Assembly: GCF_000744415.1 (NCBI RefSeq)
Contig: NZ_JQLW01000006.1
Span: forward strand, 1-64,000
Source of the DNA: Ghiorsea bivora
GTDB lineage: Bacteria > Pseudomonadota > Zetaproteobacteria > Mariprofundales > Mariprofundaceae
Direction of reading: 5' to 3'
Length of the DNA stretch: 64,000 nucleotides
The notes beneath the pieces are model-generated. The model saw only the letters and a list, made by a program, of their open reading frames with translations, had not been told where the DNA came from and did no database searches. Made by a program: the position numbers and the translations under genes. This document shows positions 11,851 to 52,903 of the stretch, piece after piece; positions within the stretch are counted from its first letter, which is position 1, and every line of letters begins with the position of its first letter.

Positions 11851-13449
11851 ATGTTAAAAATCCTTGTCATTGAAGACCAGCCTGCTGTCCGTGAAATTAT
11901 TTCCGAAGTGATTCAAGGTATGCACATCAAAATGGACATTGGGCAGTCAAGCAGCCTCAAAGAAGCCGAAGTTGCCTTACATGAACAGAGCTGGGATATG
12001 GTTGTCACCGACTTAAGTCTAGGTGATGGTAATTCGTTGGATTTAATTTCAACACTACAGCAGAAACACATCACATTGCCACCCATTGTGCTCATCAGTG
12101 GTTTTCTCACCGACAAACATGTCCAACAAGCAAAAAGTCTCAATATTGAGCATATACTTGCCAAACCCTTTGACCCTGATGTGTTGTTGGGTTGTGTACA
12201 AGATGTACTGGATCTAAAGAATATCATTAAAGTTCCAGCCACATCAAACAACCACGCACATGATAGTAAGTTACTGCCTGAAATGTTTGAAATGGACAGA
12301 AAACTAGGGCTTTTGTTTCGTATGTTTGACGAAATGCCCAAAAGCCCCGATGTATCTTCAGTATGTGATAGCGCACTAAAAATAGCCATTGATATGGTGC
12401 ATGCCCAAGGTGGTTACCTTGCCTTGTATGAGCGCAATAAAGAAACATTGGTGCAAGTCGCATTCCAAGGCAGTAATTCGCCTAATCCTATTGCGAAAAC
12501 ATGTCACTTACATGATACACCTTTTGCACCTTTGATTCATGCTTCACAAGAGTTTATTGAGGTGCTGCCCCAACAGCAGGTCAAACCATGTTGGCCAGAT
12601 ATTGAAAGTAATGCTTACTTGGCAATCCCTGTTTACCTTCAAGGTATTCCTATGGGGGTTTTATGTTTAACCAATCGTTTAAACACATCACCTTTAACCG
12701 ATGAATCCCGGTACATGCTCAGTTTGCTCATCAAGAAACTGGATACGCTTTTGGATAACCGTGCTGTGCATGCAGCACTTGCTGACAGCATGAATGAAAC
12801 ACTGATTGCATTGGTACGCTCTTTGGAAGCAAGGGATAGATATACCAAAGACCATTCATCTCGAGTCAGCCTACTTTCTGTTCAGTTTGCTCGAGCTTTA
12901 GGGCTGGATGATGAAAGTGTTCAACTGATTAAAACGGGTGGTTTGTTACATGATATTGGCAAAGTTGGTATAGCAGACTCTGTACTACTCAAACCGGGTC
13001 GGTATACCGACCAAGAATATAATATTATGAAAGCCCACCCTGCCATTGGTGATTCTATTCTTAAAAATATGGATACTTTGGTTCGTGAACGTTTAATTGT
13101 ACGCCATCATCATGAACGTTGGGATGGCAAAGGTTACCCCGATAAAATTGGCAGCACTGAAATTCCTTTTGAAGCACGTATTGTTTGTGTAGCCGATGCT
13201 ATTGATGCCATGACCACCCACAGGGTTTACCGTCAAGCCAAACCCTTATCTTTTTGCGCTGAGCAGTTAGAGTTTGCCTCAGGAAGCCAGTTCGACCCAC
13301 AAGTTGTTGCCGTAGCTCTTGAGGCAATTCGCCAAGGTAATATTTTCACACAAGCCAAATCTGACAATTGTGATGAAGGTGTGATGCCTATCCAAGCTTC
13401 TATGGGCCAAGATAAATCAATAAAACAACAGGAGTTGCCTTATGCCTGA
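11851..13449 (+). CDS. Receiver-GAF-HD-GYP protein, probable c-di-GMP phosphodiesterase
   Basis: 532 residues. Receiver (1-125, Asp54 in VVTDLSLGDG), a GAF-like domain (about 155-310, starting FRMFDEMPKSPDVSSVCDSA), then HD-GYP (about 325-505). The HD motif is GGLLHDIGKVG and the signature HHHERWDGKGYP is intact, so hydrolysis of c-di-GMP is expected. The GAF segment could bind a small ligand or mediate dimerisation. It ends inside the PilZ gene (8-bp overlap), linking enzyme and receptor. Confidence 0.92.
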   Translation: MLKILVIEDQPAVREIISEVIQGMHIKMDIGQSSSLKEAEVALHEQSWDMVVTDLSLGDGNSLDLISTLQQKHITLPPIVLISGFLTDKHVQQAKSLNIEHILAKPFDPDVLLGCVQDVLDLKNIIKVPATSNNHAHDSKLLPEMFEMDRKLGLLFRMFDEMPKSPDVSSVCDSALKIAIDMVHAQGGYLALYERNKETLVQVAFQGSNSPNPIAKTCHLHDTPFAPLIHASQEFIEVLPQQQVKPCWPDIESNAYLAIPVYLQGIPMGVLCLTNRLNTSPLTDESRYMLSLLIKKLDTLLDNRAVHAALADSMNETLIALVRSLEARDRYTKDHSSRVSLLSVQFARALGLDDESVQLIKTGGLLHDIGKVGIADSVLLKPGRYTDQEYNIMKAHPAIGDSILKNMDTLVRERLIVRHHHERWDGKGYPDKIGSTEIPFEARIVCVADAIDAMTTHRVYRQAKPLSFCAEQLEFASGSQFDPQVVAVALEAIRQGNIFTQAKSDNCDEGVMPIQASMGQDKSIKQQELPYA

Positions 13450-14032
13450 TCAAAATCGAAGACAAGATTTTCGCATTGATGATATTCTGCCCATGCAAGA
13501 TACATTGCTCACCAAAGATGAGTATGAAGCCCAAAGTGAACAAATTGGTATTCGTTCTCGACAAAATAGTATGTTACAAGAAATGGTCGGCCGTGATATT
13601 TTTTCTTCAAATATGAAAGAAAGCCTTAATCATGATATGGCAGCTGCTATTGAAACCTTAGATGCCAAGCTTAACTATTTGATTGGCGTTAATATGCTTA
13701 ATGATGCCAACCGCAGCGATCTTAAAGAACGCTCTGTAAATTTAAGTGTTACGGGCACAAGTTTTTTTACTAAAAAGTCATATCAGAAAGGTGACTACAT
13801 CAAAACCACCATGATGCTCCCCTCTTTCCCACCAACCATTCTTGAACTTGTGGGTACGGTGACATGGGTAAAAAAACAAGACAGCGACGCATTACATATT
13901 GGTGTACGCTTTCACTACCGTTGTGATGAAGAAGAAAACAGTATTGCCAAATATGTATTCCGCCGCCACCGCGAAAGCATACGCCTGCGAGCCAAACAAG
14001 AGCAGCAACGCAACAATTCGCAAGCATCATAG
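13442..14032 (+). CDS. Atypical PilZ-domain protein with a helical insertion
   Basis: 196 residues. RRQDFR at 6-11 gives the PilZ RxxxR motif (Arg7, Arg11) and NLSVTG at 100-105 gives the [D/N]xSxxG motif. Both are needed for c-di-GMP binding. Normally they are some 25 residues apart; here about 88 residues of helix-rich sequence (TLLTKDEYEAQSEQIGIRSR onward) lie between them. The C-terminus ends in a basic helix (RLRAKQEQQRN). With the HD-GYP enzyme upstream it is a likely receptor controlling motility or surface attachment. Confidence 0.8.
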   Translation: MPDQNRRQDFRIDDILPMQDTLLTKDEYEAQSEQIGIRSRQNSMLQEMVGRDIFSSNMKESLNHDMAAAIETLDAKLNYLIGVNMLNDANRSDLKERSVNLSVTGTSFFTKKSYQKGDYIKTTMMLPSFPPTILELVGTVTWVKKQDSDALHIGVRFHYRCDEEENSIAKYVFRRHRESIRLRAKQEQQRNNSQAS

Positions 14033-14088: not shown

Positions 14089-15441
14089 TTACATCAACGT
14101 TTTGATAGTAAAAGTAAGCTCTTCAACCAAACGATTACCAACATCTAACATCAAAGTTTCACTTTCCGCTTCAAGCATGACCCGAAGTTTTGGTTCCGTA
14201 CCCGATGCTCGCACATTAATCCGACCTGTATTGCCCAAGCTTTGCTCTGCATTTTGAATCAATGTTTGCACAGATGCATCACTTAACACATCCACTTTCT
14301 TTTCCATCACAATATTCCACAGTTTTTGTGGATAAAGCGTTAAATCTTTAGCCAATTCAGAAAGCGGTTGCGCTGTTTCTTGCATTGCACATAACAACTG
14401 CAAGGCAGTCATTAAACCATCCCCCGTGGTATTGCTATCCAATAAAATCATGTGACCCGATTGTTCACCACCAAGATTACAACCTTTATCCCGCATCATT
14501 TCCAACACATATCTATCGCCAACGTTTGCTCGCAACATTTGCACACCACGTTGTTCAAGGAACTTACCCAGCCCCATATTGCTCATCAAGGTGGTCACCA
14601 CTGCCTGCCCTTTGAGTTTTCCTTGCTTGAGTAAATGGTCAGCCAAAATAGCAATCACTTGATCACCATCCACAAGCTGACCTTGGGCATTACAAGCAAT
14701 GAGTCTATCTGCATCACCATCCAGTGCAAAACCAATATCCGCACCTACATCAATCACTTTCTGACACATCGTTTCAGGATATGTCGAGCCACACTGTTGA
14801 TTGATATTGTAACCATCAGGTTGGTCAAATAAGGAAATGACTTCACAACCCATTTCTTTAAACAAACTTGGGGCAACATCATAAGCTGCACCATTGGCAC
14901 TATCGATGACCACTTTTAGCCCATCAAAACGAACACCTCGCGGCAATGAAGACTTTAAAAACTCAATATAACGACCCCGTGCATCATCAACACGCACAGC
15001 TTTACCAATCTCCAAAGCAGGTGGTAATGGTGGCAAGTTATCAAGTGCGGCTTCAATTTCTAGCTCCACACTATCAGGAAGTTTAAAACCATCGGCAGCA
15101 AAAAACTTAATACCATTATCACCCGCTGGATTATGTGAAGCAGATAACACCACACCCGCATCAGCCCGTAGGCTTCGCGTCAAATAAGCCACTGCAGGTG
15201 TAGGCACAGGACCAACAAGCAATACATTCATACCTTGGGCTGTAAGCCCTGCACATAAAGCTGATTCAATCATATAACCCGAAAGCCGCGTATCTTTACC
15301 AATCAAGACATGTGGTTTGTGTTTTAAATGTTTGGTCAAAACATGACCAGCGGCTCTACCTAAACGCAAAGCAAATTCAGCAGTCATTGGGTCAGTATTC
15401 ACTACCCCTCTCACACCATCTGTACCAAAATAACGACGCAT
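14089..15441 (-). CDS. glmM: Phosphoglucosamine mutase
   Basis: 450 residues, normal length. Active-site loop LSASHNPAGDNG with the phospho-serine Ser102, metal-binding loop DGDADR and the C-terminal phosphate-binding RASGTEPKLRVM. Converts glucosamine-6-phosphate to glucosamine-1-phosphate for UDP-GlcNAc, which feeds peptidoglycan and lipid A. It is the last gene of the ftsH-folP-cdaA-ybbR-glmM block, 2 bp after ybbR. Confidence 0.97.
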   Translation of the reverse strand: MRRYFGTDGVRGVVNTDPMTAEFALRLGRAAGHVLTKHLKHKPHVLIGKDTRLSGYMIESALCAGLTAQGMNVLLVGPVPTPAVAYLTRSLRADAGVVLSASHNPAGDNGIKFFAADGFKLPDSVELEIEAALDNLPPLPPALEIGKAVRVDDARGRYIEFLKSSLPRGVRFDGLKVVIDSANGAAYDVAPSLFKEMGCEVISLFDQPDGYNINQQCGSTYPETMCQKVIDVGADIGFALDGDADRLIACNAQGQLVDGDQVIAILADHLLKQGKLKGQAVVTTLMSNMGLGKFLEQRGVQMLRANVGDRYVLEMMRDKGCNLGGEQSGHMILLDSNTTGDGLMTALQLLCAMQETAQPLSELAKDLTLYPQKLWNIVMEKKVDVLSDASVQTLIQNAEQSLGNTGRINVRASGTEPKLRVMLEAESETLMLDVGNRLVEELTFTIKTLM

Positions 15442-15443
15442 AC

Positions 15444-16145
15444 TTATTTATCCCCAATACTCTTTTGTGTATTCGCATCTGGCACATCAGCATCAGCTGT
15501 TGCATCGATATGACTCAGTTCCCCACGAATACGTATACTCAAATCTTTATCTAATAAATGGATGCCTTGCCCACTCAATGGCACAAGCTCGGCTTGCACA
15601 TCAAACAAGCCCTCTTCCAATGGCAATCGCACAGCAACAGTATCCACTTTGTTTAATGTGCTTAACCAAACCTCTGGACCTGAAAGTTTCACAATCGATG
15701 GGGTTACTACCACATGTTGTACTTCCCACCCTTGTGGCAAATCAAACGTAGGAACCACATCTAAAATACGTGTGACAATATGATCCACTTGTAATTGCAC
15801 ACTATCTGGCTGAATTTTTTCAACCTTTAATCCAACAGGTAAATCAATGGTTTCAACATCCAATGCCTGCTCAATCACACCAGGCATATTCAATGATGAT
15901 GCATCCACAGATACAAATAAGTTTTTGGTATCCAAAGCATTTAGTTGCGCCTGCAAACCAGAAATAGTCACACTTACCTGATCGGGTAAATCATTCACAA
16001 TCACCATATCAGCAGGCACATCACGTACTTGTAATGCAACATCCATGCGTACTGAACCCATACCTTGACCGTGAACCTGCACCCACAATACAACTGCAAT
16101 CAACACTGACCAAAATGGTAACCCCAATACACGAAGCATTCTCAT
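15444..16145 (-). CDS. YbbR-domain protein (CdaR-like)
   Basis: 233 residues. One N-terminal membrane anchor (VLGLPFWSVLIAVVLWVQVH) is followed by a periplasmic part with YbbR repeats, for example DQVSVTISGLQAQLNALDTK and VKLSGPEVWLSTLNKVDTV. In Firmicutes the equivalent protein, CdaR, binds and modulates the membrane diadenylate cyclase CdaA. Here it overlaps cdaA by 4 bp (ATGA) and precedes glmM, the same order as the Firmicute triad. Confidence 0.85.
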   Translation of the reverse strand: MRMLRVLGLPFWSVLIAVVLWVQVHGQGMGSVRMDVALQVRDVPADMVIVNDLPDQVSVTISGLQAQLNALDTKNLFVSVDASSLNMPGVIEQALDVETIDLPVGLKVEKIQPDSVQLQVDHIVTRILDVVPTFDLPQGWEVQHVVVTPSIVKLSGPEVWLSTLNKVDTVAVRLPLEEGLFDVQAELVPLSGQGIHLLDKDLSIRIRGELSHIDATADADVPDANTQKSIGDK

Positions 16146-16930
16146 GTTTTACTTTTCCCATTGGCTTTCATGGAAACCAATTTTTTCTTCAGCTTTAATT
16201 TTAATGTTTTGGCATCCAAAGCTTCGCCCAGCTCACCATTTTCAACCAAGTGTACATCACCGCGTTCTTCTGAAACAACCAAAACCAAAGCATCATTTTC
16301 TTCTGTCAAACCAATAGCTGCTCTATGCCGAGTACCTAAGTCGCCATCAACACTTTTCGACTTGGCTAGCGGTAATAATACTCGGGCGGATCTTATTTCG
16401 GGAAGATTTTCCTCATTTAAGGCAATCACCACAGCACCATCATGCAATGGTGTGGAGGGTGAGAATAGTGTTAATATCAACTCAGCATCTGCGCGTGAGT
16501 GCAACAAAACACCACTTTCATCCAAGTGTTTCAAGCCTGTTTCCCGTTCAAAAACAATCAAAGCTCCCCATCGCTTATTGATAAGTCTAGTCGTTGCTTT
16601 AACAACTGCAGCGATAAGCTCATCCTTAGGCGTGGCTGAAACCGCAAGCGGGTTCACAGCCACACGCATCAAACCTTTACGAATCTCAGCTTGAAAAAGA
16701 ACCACTAAAATCACAATAAAAACAGAGAAAACTTGATCAAATATCCACTCAACCGTCAGTAAACCGAAAGTACGCGCCACTTCATACAACACAAACATCA
16801 AGGCTAGCCCAATCAGCATTTTCTCAGCATGTGTGCCTCGAATTAAACGCAGCACATAATAGACCACAAACGCAACAAGCCCTATATCAATCAAATCGAG
16901 TAGGCTAACTTGCATATTACCAATCAACAT
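16142..16930 (-). CDS. cdaA: Membrane diadenylate cyclase CdaA
   Basis: 262 residues. Hydrophobic segments at about 9-30, 38-57 and 62-79 form the membrane part. The DAC domain holds the two catalytic motifs, DGAVV (164-168) and RHR (201-203, in TRHRAAIG). It makes c-di-AMP from two ATP. The messenger is well studied in Firmicutes, Actinobacteria and cyanobacteria and uncommon in proteobacteria. It overlaps folP by 7 bp and ybbR by 4 bp. No c-di-AMP phosphodiesterase is seen in the window. Confidence 0.93.
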   Translation of the reverse strand: MLIGNMQVSLLDLIDIGLVAFVVYYVLRLIRGTHAEKMLIGLALMFVLYEVARTFGLLTVEWIFDQVFSVFIVILVVLFQAEIRKGLMRVAVNPLAVSATPKDELIAAVVKATTRLINKRWGALIVFERETGLKHLDESGVLLHSRADAELILTLFSPSTPLHDGAVVIALNEENLPEIRSARVLLPLAKSKSVDGDLGTRHRAAIGLTEENDALVLVVSEERGDVHLVENGELGEALDAKTLKLKLKKKLVSMKANGKSKT

Positions 16931-17757
16931 ACGCTAAGCTGCCTATAATCAGCTAGTTTCGCTGCCACCATCATGGGATGGTGAAGTGTGCAATCATGGA
17001 CTCGAACCATATCCACACCATTAAACACCCCAATTGCCGAAGCAACAGCTGTTTCCACTTCACGGTGATGAATATCTGAACCCGTAATTTTCCCTAAGAA
17101 AGACTTGCGAGATGCACCCAACAACACAGGCAAAGCAAACTTTCGTTTTATTTGGTCTATATTGGCAATCAAAGTTAAATTATCTTCAAGATTTTTACCA
17201 AAACCTATGCCAGGATCAAGAATAATTGATGTTCTCTTAATCCCTGCCGCTAAACAGGCATCGATACGACGTTCAAAAAACTGTATCACTTCAGCAAGCA
17301 CATTCACATACTTCGGCGCTTGTTGCATGGTTTCTGGTGTGCCTTGCATATGCATTAAACATACATCGACACCTGACTTTGCCACGACAGCCAAACTATC
17401 GCGATCAAACGTCAATGCGCTCACATCATTCACTAAACTGGCACCTGCCTCAATCGCCTGCCGCATCACCTCAGCTTTCATGGTATCAATAGAGATCACG
17501 ATATCATTAGGCAATGCCTGAATCACAGGAATCACACGGGCAAGTTCTTCCTCAAGGCTGACAGGCTCAGCATTAGGGCGCGTTGATTCACCACCAACAT
17601 CAATAATATCCGCACCTTGTGAAAGCATGACTTCAGTTTTACACACAAGCTCGGATACACTCAGGCCTGCACCATCAGAAAAAGAATCTGGTGTGCAATT
17701 GAGCACCCCCATCAGCCACGTAGGCTGCCCTTTTTTACGATGCCAACGCGCCGTCAA
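16924..17757 (-). CDS. folP: Dihydropteroate synthase
   Basis: 277 residues. MGVLNCTPDSFSDGA, DVGGESTRP and the later ILDPGIGFGKN and LLGASRKSFLG are the pterin- and pABA-binding loops. Joins pABA to the pterin diphosphate in folate synthesis. The start is uncertain: the frame opens with TTG at 17757 just after the ftsH stop, and the first ATG (17712) lies inside the conserved core, so TTG is the better choice. Confidence 0.95.
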   Translation of the reverse strand: MTARWHRKKGQPTWLMGVLNCTPDSFSDGAGLSVSELVCKTEVMLSQGADIIDVGGESTRPNAEPVSLEEELARVIPVIQALPNDIVISIDTMKAEVMRQAIEAGASLVNDVSALTFDRDSLAVVAKSGVDVCLMHMQGTPETMQQAPKYVNVLAEVIQFFERRIDACLAAGIKRTSIILDPGIGFGKNLEDNLTLIANIDQIKRKFALPVLLGASRKSFLGKITGSDIHHREVETAVASAIGVFNGVDMVRVHDCTLHHPMMVAAKLADYRQLSVC

Positions 17758-17759
17758 GC

Positions 17760-19688
17760 TTAACTCTCTTGACCTGTCTCTTTCCCATCTTTGGGTTCAT
17801 GTTTTTCTTCACCAGCATCCATGGCGATATCTTCTTCGCCCGTATCATCATTGTTACTGGAAAAAGTACTTTGATCCACAGGACGTTGAAGTTTTTCACC
17901 ACGCAATAAAGCAGACACTTCTTTACCCGACAATGTTTCATACTCCAGCAATGCTTGAGCAATAATTTCCAACTCATCACGGTGGTCTGTTAAAATTTTA
18001 CGCGCTTTTTCTTCGGCTATATCAACAAAAGCTCGAATTTCTTCATCAATAATCAGCGCTGTTGCATCAGACACATGTTTATTTTGTGTCACTGAACGAC
18101 CCAAAAATACCTCTTCTTCATTTTCAGAAAAACGCAAACGTCCCAAACGTTCACTAAAGCCATACTCTGTCACCATAGCTCTAGCAATTTTTGTAGCTTG
18201 CTGAATATCATGACCTGCACCTGTGGTAATGTTTTCAGGACCAAATACCAATTCTTCAGCCATGCGTCCACCAAACAAAGATGCCAAACGTGACTCCAAC
18301 TCAATACGCGACTGACTTAAACGATCGCGTTCTGGCAAGTTCATGGTCACACCCAAAGCACGACCACGCGGAATAATCGTCACCTTATGCAAAGGATCAT
18401 GTTTAGGGCTGTGAATACCAACAAGCGCATGACCTGCTTCATGGTAAGCCGTTAATGCTTTTTCCTCATCGGTCATTGCCATGGATTTACGCTCAGCACC
18501 CATCATGACTTTATCTTTGGACTCTTCAAAATCTTGATTGGTCACTTTATCACGATTGTATCGTGCAGCACTTAATGCAGCTTCATTCACCAAGTTTGCC
18601 AAGTCCGCGCCTGAGAACCCAGGTGTACCCCGTGCCAAAGCTTGTACATCCACATCCGATGATAAAGGCACTTTTTTCATGTGTACTTTAAGAATCTGTA
18701 CACGACCTGCCATATCAGGATTACCAACAACCACTTGACGGTCAAAACGGCCCGGACGAAGTAATGCAGGGTCAAGCACATCTGGGCGGTTGGTGGCAGC
18801 CACCAAAATCACACCTTCATTGGCCTCAAAGCCATCCATCTCCACCAACAATTGGTTCAATGTTTGTTCGCGTTCATCATTACCACCGCCAATGCCTGCA
18901 CCGCGGTGTCTACCCATAGCATCAATCTCATCAACAAAAATAATGCATGGTGCATGTTTTTTAGCTTGTTCAAACATATCACGCACGCGTGATGCACCTA
19001 CACCTACGAACATTTCCACAAAATCTGAGCCTGAAATAGAATAAAATGGAACCTCAGCTTCACCAGCAATCGCACGACCCAACAACGTTTTACCTGTGCC
19101 CGGAGGTCCTACAAGCAGGATACCTTTAGGAATTTTACCACCCAATCGGGTGAATTTGGTCGGGTCGCGTAAAAACTCAATGACTTCAGTGACTTCTTGT
19201 TTGGCTTCATCACAACCCGCTACATCTTCAAATGTTACACGGTCTTTATGTTCGGTAAGCAACTTGGCTTTAGATTTACCAAAACCCATGGCTCCACCTT
19301 TGCCACCACCTTGCATTTGACGCATAAAGAAAATCCATACACCAATCAATAACAACATAGGGAACCATGAAATCAAAATGGTTAAGAACATAGATTCTTC
19401 ACGATGCGATGCTTTCACTTCAACTTTATTATCAATCAAACGTTGCACCAAGCTAGGGTCATCGGGCAACTCAAGTTCGAATCGTGTAACATTACCAGAC
19501 ATGTCGCGGTAATGACCCACTGCTTTTTTATCTTGGATGGTAACATCATCCACAAGCCCTTGGTCTACTTTTTCAATAAACGCGGTATAACTTAGCGGCT
19601 GTGTTTTGCCCATTGGCGCACTGAACATATTAAAAATGCTCATCATTGTCATACCAATTACAATCCATAAAAGTAGGTTTTTATTCAT
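17760..19688 (-). CDS. ftsH: ATP-dependent zinc metalloprotease FtsH
   Basis: 642 residues. Two membrane segments (about 5-22 and 101-121) flank a periplasmic region. The AAA domain has Walker A GPPGTGKT (194-201), Walker [12 protein letters not shown] and the second region of homology ([19 protein letters not shown]). The protease has HEAGH. The C-terminus is long and acidic ([14 protein letters not shown]). It degrades membrane proteins and, in enterobacteria, LpxC. Downstream of tilS with a 15-bp gap, the tilS-ftsH order seen in several bacteria. Confidence 0.97.
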
Positions 19689-19703: not shown

Positions 19704-20684
19704 TTATGTTTCACTATTCATACATCTTTTGCGCAAACTCACCTTTCCTTGGCAAAGTTGCAAGTCTTGTTCATGCCGATACAAACAACATCCTGACAGA
19801 TTCAGCCAACCATGACCACCCTGTTCACGCCATGTCTCAATGGCATGAATATGTCTTCGCCCCAACACACTTCCATCAACAAACAACATACCAACCATTT
19901 TTTGCAACAAATAAACACGCACTGGTAACAACTGCCCACACCAATCTTCCCAATTCATCGCACATACTACGATAGAATCTTGCTGCCATCGTTGCAAAGT
20001 CACAGCTTGCGCAAGCCCTTCTATCTCTGTTTGTATACGTTCAGCTTGTTTCTGCCAACGTAAAAACAACGCACTGGGTTCAATCTGGCGTGCTTTCATT
20101 GCTGGAAACAACTTATGCCTTATTTTATTTCGCCAAATGGTAACATCTTGATTGCTTACATCTTCGTGCCACTCTATTTGGCGGCAGATTAAGAATTGCT
20201 TAAGCCGTTCTTTACGCACAGTTAACAGTGGTCGCCAAAGTGTTACACACTGTTGCTGCCTAACATTCTTCATACCTTGGCAACCGGCAACCCCAGCACC
20301 TTGTAACAAACGCATACACACCGTCTCTGCTTGGTCTTCAGCATGATGCCCCAACACAATATGTTTACACCCTGTTTCTTTTGCCAATGCCGCAAAGGCT
20401 TGATAACGATGTTTCCGCGCTTCAGCCTCAATATTGCTTTTAGCCTTATGTGTATGCCTTAAATGAAAGCTTAAGCCCCAAAATTTAGCCTGCTGTGCTA
20501 ACGCCTCGGCGATCAATCCAGACTGCTTACTCCATCCATGGTCGACATGCCACAATTGAACATCAAAACCTGCATCCTGCAATAACAAAACAAGCGCCGT
20601 AGAGTCCAAACCTCCAGACCATGCCACAGCAACTTGTTTAGGCATGGTGCCCAATAATGGTAAATCAAATGGCATTGTAGTCAC
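19704..20684 (-). CDS. tilS: tRNA(Ile)-lysidine synthase
   Basis: 326 residues. The PP-loop AWSGGLDSTAL and HIVLGHHAEDQAET are the ATP- and substrate-binding signatures. It changes C34 of the CAU-anticodon isoleucine tRNA to lysidine, an essential step. The C-terminal part is shorter than in E. coli TilS (432 residues). The frame opens with GTG at 20684; an ATG three codons later (20675) is also possible and neither has a clear ribosome-binding site. The MITE at 20710 lies just upstream. Confidence 0.92.
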   Translation of the reverse strand: MTTMPFDLPLLGTMPKQVAVAWSGGLDSTALVLLLQDAGFDVQLWHVDHGWSKQSGLIAEALAQQAKFWGLSFHLRHTHKAKSNIEAEARKHRYQAFAALAKETGCKHIVLGHHAEDQAETVCMRLLQGAGVAGCQGMKNVRQQQCVTLWRPLLTVRKERLKQFLICRQIEWHEDVSNQDVTIWRNKIRHKLFPAMKARQIEPSALFLRWQKQAERIQTEIEGLAQAVTLQRWQQDSIVVCAMNWEDWCGQLLPVRVYLLQKMVGMLFVDGSVLGRRHIHAIETWREQGGHGWLNLSGCCLYRHEQDLQLCQGKVSLRKRCMNSET

Positions 20685-49904: not shown

Positions 49905-50729
49905 TTATCTACAGTGTACAGCAAATAAACGCGGCATTTTCTCTTGATCAAGCCTAGCCAAGGTCAACTGACCACCCCATACACATCCTGTATCTAGACC
50001 CAAAACATACGGGTGTTCAGCAACCAAACCTTTGGCTGCCCAATGTCCAAACACGAATCGCGTTTTCTTTTTTCCATCTTTTTTCCACTTGGCATGTTCG
50101 TGTTCAAACCATGGTTGACTATGTTGATCTGTGGTATCTGCTGTTTTTTGTTGCCAATCAAATGTGCCAACATCACTACAAAAACGTGTTCGCGTGAATA
50201 CGGCTGTATTAAACAATAGTCTCACATGTTTATCTTTAGGTTCCTGCGTTGGAAAACCTTTACTTTGCAATGCCTTACAAAAAGAACCCCAATCATCGGA
50301 TTGTAAAACAGCCTCAACCTTTCGTGCGCGTTTCTTGGCTTTTTTGAGGCTCCAAAGCGGGCTAACCCCTGCATGAACCATGGCCCAACCCAAAGTTTTA
50401 TCATGATGCAATAAGGGTTTATGCCGAAGCCAATCGATCAATGCTGCACCATCTTTAGCATGCACCACTTCATCCAAGGTATCCCCTTCAAATGATTTCC
50501 CACCCGCATAATACGCCAACAATTGAATATCATGATTGCCTAATACACATACACAAGCGTCACCCAATTTTTTCAAGAAACGTAAGACTTTCAACGAATC
50601 AGGGCCTCGGTTGACCATGTCTCCAGCGCACCACAACATATCTTCCTTGGGGTTAAAGTTGACTTGCTTTAACAACTTTTTTAAAGGTTTATAACAGCCT
50701 TGAATATCACCCACCACATATACAGCCAT
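49905..50729 (-). CDS. apaH: Bis(5'-nucleosyl)-tetraphosphatase, symmetrical
   Basis: 274 residues from the ATG at 50729; an upstream GTG-type extension overlaps lpxB and is rejected. VVGDIQGCYKPLKKLL, WCAGDMVNRGPDSLKV, and LGNHDIQLL are the three metallophosphatase motifs. Hydrolyses Ap4A to two ADP and in enterobacteria also removes Np4 caps from RNA. The ATG shares one base with the lpxB stop (TAATG), so it is the last gene of the envelope operon. Confidence 0.94.
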   Translation of the reverse strand: MAVYVVGDIQGCYKPLKKLLKQVNFNPKEDMLWCAGDMVNRGPDSLKVLRFLKKLGDACVCVLGNHDIQLLAYYAGGKSFEGDTLDEVVHAKDGAALIDWLRHKPLLHHDKTLGWAMVHAGVSPLWSLKKAKKRARKVEAVLQSDDWGSFCKALQSKGFPTQEPKDKHVRLLFNTAVFTRTRFCSDVGTFDWQQKTADTTDQHSQPWFEHEHAKWKKDGKKKTRFVFGHWAAKGLVAEHPYVLGLDTGCVWGGQLTLARLDQEKMPRLFAVHCR

Positions 50730-51895
50730 TACTTCAACATCTCCTGCCAGCACAAAGCCGCAAGTTTTTCTGCAGGGTTACCTGTGCCCAGCAATGCACG
50801 CAAATCTGCAAAGGCTTGTGTTTGCTGCTGTGTCTCACCGCACAATAATGGATGAATGTTAGCTTCAATATTTTCTATCGTTGCATCATGCTGCAATAAC
50901 TCTGGCACAATACCTTGCGAACTTGGCGCATCACCCAAAAGCAAGATATTAGCAAGCCCTACACACCGCCCCTTAATCAAGCGTTGTCCAATAAACCAAG
51001 AAAATGCCGATGTTTTGTACACCAATACTGTAGGCGTATCCCAAAGTGCCAATTCCAGCGTCGCCGTACCTGAAACAGCAATCGCAGCATCAGCTCTGAG
51101 CGCATAATAATTTTCCGTACGCTCTAAAAGCATTACACCCACATCCGTAAGAGGTTTTAATGCTTCGGGTTTGACACTTGGTGCAAGCGTTGCCACCGCT
51201 TGAAGTGCTGGTTGTTGTTTTTGTAAACGGACAAACGTATCCGCTAAAAGTTGCACATGCTGTTTTAATTCCGATGGGCGAGAGCCAGGCAGTAAAGCCA
51301 ACAGTGGTGTATCCTCTATCAAACCCAAGCGCTTTTTAAGCGCAGCCTTGCTCCAACCACCCTGACAAGCATACGCACTGGGGTTACCCACATACACGAC
51401 ATCTTGAATACCACGTTCGCTAAACCACGTTTGCTCAAACGGAAAAATACATGCCAAACGATTTTGTGATTGCTGCAGTTTGGTAATGCGTTTCGCACCC
51501 CATGCCCAAAGCTTGGGTGCAATATAATGCGTCACAAACAAACCTTTGGCACGAAGTTTACGCCCAAGCCCCAAATGGAAACTGGTGAAATCAGTAAGAA
51601 TCACTACATCAGGCTTAAACGCATCGGCAAATGCCAATATATCCTTTTCTACACGCTTGATACGTGGTAATGCCTTGATGACATCGCCAAAACCCATCAC
51701 ATTCAAATCAGCCATATCACGCACAGGTTTACAACCTGCTTTCTGCATCATCGGCCCTGCAATACCAGAAACTTCAAGCGTCACATCATCAGGTGTTTGC
51801 GCTTGAAGTTGTTTAACCACCGCAGCAGCATGCAAATCACCAGAAGTTTCCCCTGCTGACATCAAAACGCGATATGTTTTTGAATTACTCACCAT
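50729..51895 (-). CDS. lpxB: Lipid-A-disaccharide synthase
   Basis: 388 residues. VLMSAGETSGDLHAAAVVKQ is the LpxB N-terminal signature, then YIAPKLWAWGAKRITKL and LLPGSRPSELKQH, which bind UDP-2,3-diacylglucosamine and the second sugar. Joins lipid X to UDP-2,3-diacyl-GlcN at the inner membrane. Downstream of lpxI but separated from it by 189 bp, so it may have its own promoter in that gap. Confidence 0.95.
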   Translation of the reverse strand: MVSNSKTYRVLMSAGETSGDLHAAAVVKQLQAQTPDDVTLEVSGIAGPMMQKAGCKPVRDMADLNVMGFGDVIKALPRIKRVEKDILAFADAFKPDVVILTDFTSFHLGLGRKLRAKGLFVTHYIAPKLWAWGAKRITKLQQSQNRLACIFPFEQTWFSERGIQDVVYVGNPSAYACQGGWSKAALKKRLGLIEDTPLLALLPGSRPSELKQHVQLLADTFVRLQKQQPALQAVATLAPSVKPEALKPLTDVGVMLLERTENYYALRADAAIAVSGTATLELALWDTPTVLVYKTSAFSWFIGQRLIKGRCVGLANILLLGDAPSSQGIVPELLQHDATIENIEANIHPLLCGETQQQTQAFADLRALLGTGNPAEKLAALCWQEMLK

Positions 51896-52084: not shown

Positions 52085-52903
52085 TTATTTTGCCTGAAAC
52101 CCAATCACCGAAATACCCAAACGACTTGCAGTATCTGCCAGTTTATATTTTTCAATCAACAGCGTTTTCCCTGCTTCAATACCTATGGCTGTACAACCTG
52201 ATGCTGCCATGGTTTCTAATGTGCCAATACCCATAGCTGGCACATCAAACCTAGGGTCTTGATTGGGTTTGGAGACTTTGACGACTGTCACATCGGATTT
52301 ACCTAAAGCTCCACCACGTTTAATCGCTTCATCCGTGCCTTCAATGGCTTCTACGGCAAGCACGGCTTCATCTTTAACAACAATGGTCTGCCCGATGTCT
52401 AAACTTGCAATCGCTTTAGCTTGAGGGAAACCAAATTTAATGTCTTTAAGCATTTGTTCTATGGGTTTGGGGCCAAACAAATGACCTTCACTTGCCAATA
52501 AGTCATCTGCAAATTCAATTTGCGAGCGCACCGTGATACCTGCTTTTTCTAGTGCAGCAACAATACCTAACATCAAGGAATCATCTTTTTTGTCTTTGGC
52601 TTGAAATAAAATTTTAGCCGCCAATAAATCAGGTTTAAAATTACGAAATAAATGTATCTTTTGCACTTTACCTGCAAAAATAAGGTCAGAAACATCATGG
52701 ATCTGCATGGTTTTAATCATTTTTTTGATTTGACCAACCGATACCCAAGTCACACTATCGGCAATGCTTTCTATGTCTTTGGATGCTTCTTCTTGAATGG
52801 CGGCAACATGCACCATAAAACCTTTGTTTTTCAATGTTTGACACAGCTCTAGGGGAAACGCACCGTAACCCGCGACCAAACCAATCGATTGAGACTCAGA
52901 CAT
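52085..52903 (-). CDS. lpxI: UDP-2,3-diacylglucosamine pyrophosphatase LpxI
   Basis: 272 residues. IGLVAGYGAFPLELCQTLKN at the start, FAGKVQKIHLFRN and KVSKPNQDPRFDVPAMG, then IGIEAGKTLLIEK match the LpxI (DUF1009) family, which replaces LpxH in alphaproteobacteria and some other lineages. Produces lipid X for LpxB. Starts 8 bp inside lpxA. Its presence helps exclude a typical gamma- or betaproteobacterial host. Confidence 0.93.
   Translation of the reverse strand: MSESQSIGLVAGYGAFPLELCQTLKNKGFMVHVAAIQEEASKDIESIADSVTWVSVGQIKKMIKTMQIHDVSDLIFAGKVQKIHLFRNFKPDLLAAKILFQAKDKKDDSLMLGIVAALEKAGITVRSQIEFADDLLASEGHLFGPKPIEQMLKDIKFGFPQAKAIASLDIGQTIVVKDEAVLAVEAIEGTDEAIKRGGALGKSDVTVVKVSKPNQDPRFDVPAMGIGTLETMAASGCTAIGIEAGKTLLIEKYKLADTASRLGISVIGFQAK

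Follow-up and report, generated by a model that had tools for sequence, protein, structure and literature searches.

A conserved cdaA-ybbR-glmM locus in Ghiorsea bivora and other Zetaproteobacteria, probably an old inheritance lost by nearly all their relatives

The window analyzed here, a stretch of 64,000 nucleotides from the iron-oxidizing Ghiorsea bivora (contig NZ_JQLW01000006.1, positions 1 to 64,000), carries on its minus strand the gene order tilS-ftsH-folP-cdaA-ybbR-glmM, all six genes being identified by family models. The conserved block opens with tilS (tRNA(Ile)-lysidine synthetase, 19704..20684; NCBIfam models), continues with ftsH (ATP-dependent membrane metalloprotease, 17760..19688; NCBIfam FtsH 877 bits against a cut-off of 600, Pfam Peptidase_M41 237 bits), folP (dihydropteroate synthase, 16924..17757; NCBIfam DHPS 300.5 bits against 162.6, Pfam Pterin_bind 284 bits), cdaA (a membrane diadenylate cyclase of 262 residues, 16142..16930) and ybbR, also called cdaR (233 residues, 15444..16145), and ends with glmM (phosphoglucosamine mutase of 450 residues with all four PGM_PMM domains, 14089..15441; NCBIfam glmM 603.6 bits against 447.6). 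The intergenic distances, in order from tilS to glmM, are 15, 2, -7, -4, and 2 nucleotides. A preliminary description of the window had proposed a cdaA-ybbR-glmM cluster in a Gram-negative genome, with overlapping genes and with linkage to ftsH and folP. Pfam and NCBIfam matches and gene order confirm that the cluster is complete and that ftsH and folP both lie upstream of cdaA in the same operon; the overlaps hold for cdaA and ybbR (4 nucleotides), and also for folP and cdaA (7 nucleotides), but ybbR and glmM are 2 nucleotides apart. A scan for promoters and terminators returned no more sites than were found in shuffled sequence. This is a real, conserved c-di-AMP gene locus, and its conservation across Zetaproteobacteria argues against chance; to judge from sequence, it is probably functional in c-di-AMP signalling.

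The Gram-negative character of the host, likewise asserted from the presence of LPS and BAM genes, is borne out at roughly 50-58 kb of the window by LpxD, a FabA/FabZ-like domain protein, an LpxA-type protein, LpxI, and LpxB, together with an OmpH-like protein and a BamA-type Omp85 protein with 4 POTRA domains. A calcineurin-like phosphoesterase gene adjoins lpxB there, though lpxI is also near (49905-50753 and 52085-52903, minus strand). Convergent to the operon, an HD_5/HD response regulator and a PilZ protein (Pfam; 11851-14032, plus strand) make c-di-GMP-type signalling genes the neighbors of a c-di-AMP operon.

CdaA matches the Pfam families DAC (PF02457, 115.8 bits, cut-off 27) and CdaA_N (PF19293, 37.9 bits, cut-off 23.8). 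Its best NCBIfam match is the equivalog TIGR00159 at 183.5 bits, against a cut-off of 188.8; we take this shortfall of 5 bits as a mark of divergence rather than of a different protein, the cut-off being a naming threshold and not a functional feature. The DAC motifs are intact (GALI at residue 122; DGA at 164, preceded by His as HDGA; RHR at 201 within GTRHRAA; SEE at 220 within VSEE), DGA and RHR are kept in all 54 zetaproteobacterial CdaA rows of the alignment, and the structure model places three N-terminal membrane helices at residues 10-30, 35-55, and 58-90 ahead of the DAC domain, so that both catalytic motifs and the three membrane segments stand as first described. Superposition of the modelled DAC domain on B. 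subtilis CdaA gives 1.4-1.5 A; for solved CdaA/DacA structures in general the fit is about 1.4-1.5 A and the identity about 40%. The DAC gene is single in the Ghiorsea genome, and with its catalytic motifs intact CdaA is most likely an inner-membrane enzyme that synthesizes c-di-AMP. YbbR matches Pfam YbbR (PF07949, 38.4 bits, cut-off 22.3); Pfam finds one extracytoplasmic YbbR-like domain, and the model shows a membrane helix at residues 3-25 and two such domains, beta domains matching the YbbR structures 4qdy, 3lyw, and 5hqh, with the two-domain structure 4qdy aligning over 202 columns. Anchored beside CdaA and facing the periplasm, YbbR would most likely modulate the cyclase. Across the class YbbR varies in length from about 216 to 400 residues while CdaA is steady at 251-271.

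Among 398 Pseudomonadota genomes (78 Zetaproteobacteria and 320 outside the class), DAC is present in 71 of the 78 zetaproteobacterial genomes, including 38 of the 39 good ones, and a full-length DAC is found in only 2 of the 320 others, designated G017 and G234. Named relatives by CdaA, at 93-96% identity, are MAGs of Ghiorsea (Zetaproteobacteria). Weak DAC matches in G085, G105, G144, G147, and other Pseudomonadota were rejected as cyclases: none of the four examined has both DGA and RHR, and two carry DACNV. In these DACNV proteins (L212:181-2274, plus strand; L215:1296-2816, minus strand) the weak DAC match is C-terminal, and one of them also carries response-regulator and PAS domains. The 0.9-Mb genome G234, listed among Pseudomonadota, has its cdaA (L099:5642-6400, plus strand) on its own, without ybbR or glmM; its neighbors, named by eye, are a dnaN-like gene and a large gene of AsmA type, and no GlmM was found in the genome at E 1e-60.

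The order ftsH-folP-cdaA-ybbR-glmM is common to Zetaproteobacteria, to Acidobacteriota, and to one Myxococcota MAG, among others, and G017, a member of Pseudomonadota outside the class, has the same arrangement; in Bacteroides (Bacteroidota) folP adjoins cdaA. folP adjoins glmM in 19 of 28 other Pseudomonadota, with no cdaA or ybbR match between them; two of the 28 have unrelated ORFs between folP and glmM, and in the rest folP is absent from the flank examined. The shared order across phyla, taken with the folP-glmM junction in other Pseudomonadota, makes the linkage to ftsH and folP a widespread Gram-negative arrangement. The label "Firmicute-style" which the cluster had been given is misleading, because the extended order recurs in Acidobacteriota and the Myxococcota MAG and because other Pseudomonadota have the operon minus cdaA-ybbR. 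One variant was seen in G014, the only genome of its family (f3 of the same order) with enough flank, where cdaA-ybbR-glmM (L097) is detached from ftsH-folP and the upstream frame resembles chorismate synthase by eye. An apparent folP-cdaA fusion in this genome (a 605-residue frame) was discarded, since its added stretch comes from reading neighboring genes out of frame and the real CdaA start is at L097:4402. A literature search by title and abstract, with most subscription papers outside its reach, returned no paper on c-di-AMP signalling in Zetaproteobacteria, and none treating four of cdaA, ybbR, glmM, folP, and ftsH together.

The preliminary description held that a genome with neither c-di-AMP nor any phosphodiesterase or receptor would tell against it. 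No homolog of a PgpH-type 7TM-HD protein is found in the genome, but a candidate phosphodiesterase is: at the thresholds used there are two DHH proteins, a RecJ-sized frame of 582 residues and a DHH-DHHA1 protein of 326 residues whose gene sits in infB-rbfA-DHH-truB. Among solved structures the latter best matches Rv2837c (M. tuberculosis CnpB) at 132 bits, whereas chains named NrnA or Pde otherwise score lower, at 30-76 bits, and against the NrnA model it scores 82.7 bits where the cut-off is 350; by sequence it is closer to CnpB than to NrnA/Pde2. CnpB-like proteins hydrolyze c-di-AMP directly, while NrnA/Pde2 proteins do not (PMC9757072), which makes a c-di-AMP role for the Ghiorsea protein plausible. 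Strong DHH matches occur within the class, and outside it, in the 398-genome sample, they are confined to G017 and G234, the same two genomes that have a DAC (Fisher p about 2e-5, although the genomes are not independent, the co-occurrence amounts to about three independent lineages, and the G234 match is only 26% identical). The order rbfA-DHH-truB is also present in the Acidobacteriota examined, several of which have infB-rbfA-DHH-truB, and truB has no DHH neighbor in those DAC-negative Pseudomonadota that were examined. The pairing of DAC and DHH is not universal: among 28 DAC-positive genomes of other phyla the DHH query had no match in 7 (Omnitrophota and the Myxococcota-like L018 and L037 among them) and very weak matches in two more. 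The protein could instead be a nanoRNase (NrnA), or serve pGpG turnover in c-di-GMP signalling, and so be unrelated to c-di-AMP; the NrnA model does match, if weakly, NrnA proteins cleave pGpG (PMC6256023), and the c-di-GMP-type PilZ and HD_5 genes adjoin the locus. We think this possible but rather unlikely, since oligoribonuclease (Orn) is already present in the genome, so that nanoRNase activity need not depend on the DHH-DHHA1 protein alone, since its nearest solved relative is a direct c-di-AMP hydrolase, and since DHH presence tracks the cyclase in the Pseudomonadota sample. The protein encoded between rbfA and truB would thus most likely hydrolyze c-di-AMP.

GlmM inhibition of CdaA, carried over from Firmicutes in the preliminary description, is unsupported at residue level. 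In B. subtilis, D151, E154, and D195 of GlmM contact R126 of CdaA (PMC8573169), and E. coli and P. aeruginosa GlmM, which have R at 151, neither bind nor inhibit S. aureus DacA (PMC8573169, PMC6368335). At the three contact positions zetaproteobacterial GlmM has R/D/E, as do E. coli and Pseudomonas, in 46 of 47 rows, Ghiorsea among them, and R/D/gap in the 47th; with R at 151 in all 47, the Firmicute interaction code fails at its discriminating position. R/D/E is also found in most Pseudomonadota that lack CdaA, and the GlmM surface therefore bears no sign of selection for CdaA binding. Regulation as in Firmicutes, with GlmM binding the DAC domain, blocking active oligomers, and tying c-di-AMP to the supply of peptidoglycan precursors, would accord with the presence of the same three genes nearly abutting, and with a basic residue at CdaA position 126 (B. 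subtilis numbering; lysine in the window, and lysine or arginine in most other Zetaproteobacteria); two of the three acidic GlmM contacts remain as D/E, and alanine variants at the contact positions of B. subtilis GlmM hardly affected binding (PMC8573169), so that GlmM may bind CdaA through other contacts. Given an arginine shared with GlmMs that do not bind, and a surface shared with Pseudomonadota that have no CdaA to bind, we nonetheless consider such regulation unlikely, and the GlmM brake known from Firmicutes is doubtful here.

Candidate receptors are TrkA, with two RCK_C domains, and a 612-residue K+/H+ antiporter with RCK domains, its C-terminus being TrkA-like, and TrkH is also present; TrkA_C matches in E. 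coli as well, so the presence of TrkA says nothing about c-di-AMP binding. No c-di-AMP riboswitch of the ydaO type (RF00379) was found in the genome. The signal would probably act on potassium or turgor homeostasis.

In the CdaA tree Zetaproteobacteria form one clade (100/100), and G017 is nearest to them (86/97), a weak join flagged as prone to long-branch effects. In the GlmM tree, a quick tree, Zetaproteobacteria again form one clade (100), inside the Pseudomonadota set (83). These trees fit vertical descent with loss in other classes, without proving it. Two loci titled Bifidobacterium breve and Acidimicrobiia (L043 and L055) are placed within the Acidobacteriota clade by both trees; mislabelling or contamination of these MAGs is the probable reason. 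Alternatively, the ancestor of Zetaproteobacteria might have gained the cdaA-ybbR pair at the folP-glmM junction by horizontal transfer, with Acidobacteriota, Myxococcota, or another Gram-negative phylum as the source, which would account for its absence from nearly all other Pseudomonadota, and the lone cdaA beside unrelated genes in G234 suggests that single-gene CdaA transfer into Pseudomonadota does seem to occur. We regard such an insertion as improbable: i) it would have to hit the exact position that the pair holds in the same operon of other phyla; ii) the closest CdaAs outside the class are only 43-44% identical, none exceeding 44%; iii) G017, itself a member of Pseudomonadota, shows the same arrangement; and iv) the DHH gene would need to have landed, in a separate event, just as exactly between rbfA and truB. 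Arrival of the entire block from another phylum, or a single ancient transfer, is a further alternative that we hold less probable than retention. Recent transfer from Firmicutes can be dismissed, as Bacillota CdaAs are about 34-37% identical and the zetaproteobacterial CdaA forms its own clade. The cdaA-ybbR pair of Zetaproteobacteria is thus probably an old inheritance lost by nearly all their relatives, not one borrowed from Gram-positives.

Descent with loss might have run as follows. The cdaA-ybbR pair and the DHH gene were probably present in the pseudomonadotan ancestor; all three would have been lost on the lineage that gave rise to most other classes, so that ftsH-folP-glmM and infB-rbfA-truB are what is left there; and the Ghiorsea cdaA, the only diadenylate cyclase gene of its host, would have been kept at its ancestral place in tilS-ftsH-folP-cdaA-ybbR-glmM. 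An ancestral cdaA-ybbR locus with a predicted cyclase, modulator, and hydrolase, lost in other classes, is in our view, held with reasonable confidence, the best explanation as a whole of the observed gene content, gene order, motifs, distribution, and co-occurrence. A bolder version we advance only tentatively, thinking it a little more apt to prove wrong than right: that c-di-AMP was in use in the last common ancestor of Pseudomonadota, that cdaA-ybbR and a CnpB-like hydrolase were deleted from two housekeeping operons of which ftsH-folP-glmM and infB-rbfA-truB are the scars, and that Zetaproteobacteria kept the system class-wide with CdaA free of the GlmM brake.

The interest of the locus lies in class-wide retention within Pseudomonadota and in the parallel absence of the synthase and the candidate hydrolase from two shared operons elsewhere. 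The Gram-negative group that has been studied best is regarded as lacking c-di-AMP, a loss still to be explained. An entire class of Pseudomonadota that keeps a cyclase, a membrane partner, and a candidate hydrolase makes a role for c-di-AMP in an LPS-bearing cell testable, and lets one ask what replaced c-di-AMP in E. coli and its kin; the coexistence of CdaA with an E. coli-type GlmM surface also lets the interaction code that has been proposed be tested on a natural case.

Compared with known systems, the Ghiorsea locus has the same three genes in the same order as the CdaA-CdaR(YbbR)-GlmM module of Bacillota (B. subtilis, S. aureus, and L. monocytogenes), the same DAC motifs, the same three-helix CdaA N-terminus, and a YbbR that combines a single membrane helix with YbbR-like domains. 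It differs from that module in being embedded in tilS-ftsH-folP, in a YbbR modelled with two domains where B. subtilis CdaR has a larger number, in GlmM contact residues that are R/D/E rather than the D/E/D of Bacillota, and in a genome without a PgpH homolog or c-di-AMP riboswitch. M. tuberculosis CnpB (Rv2837c) is a standalone DHH-DHHA1 protein like the Ghiorsea 326-residue protein, although identity is about 30% or less (by eye from the alignment) and the Ghiorsea activity is predicted. Leptospira interrogans, whose cells are of Gram-negative type, has a functional cyclase of the CdaA type with cdaR as the next gene, but its operon, unlike that of Ghiorsea, has no glmM and neighbors dapA and dapB (PMC12974146). 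The E. coli-type ftsH-folP-glmM operon has the same flanking genes in the same order, a GlmM of the same clade and in most cases the same contact residues, but lacks cdaA and ybbR. The loci of Acidobacteriota and of the Myxococcota MAG share the extended gene order of Ghiorsea, with CdaAs about 33-43% identical to its own, although Acidobacteriota GlmMs mostly have other residues at the positions that contact CdaA.
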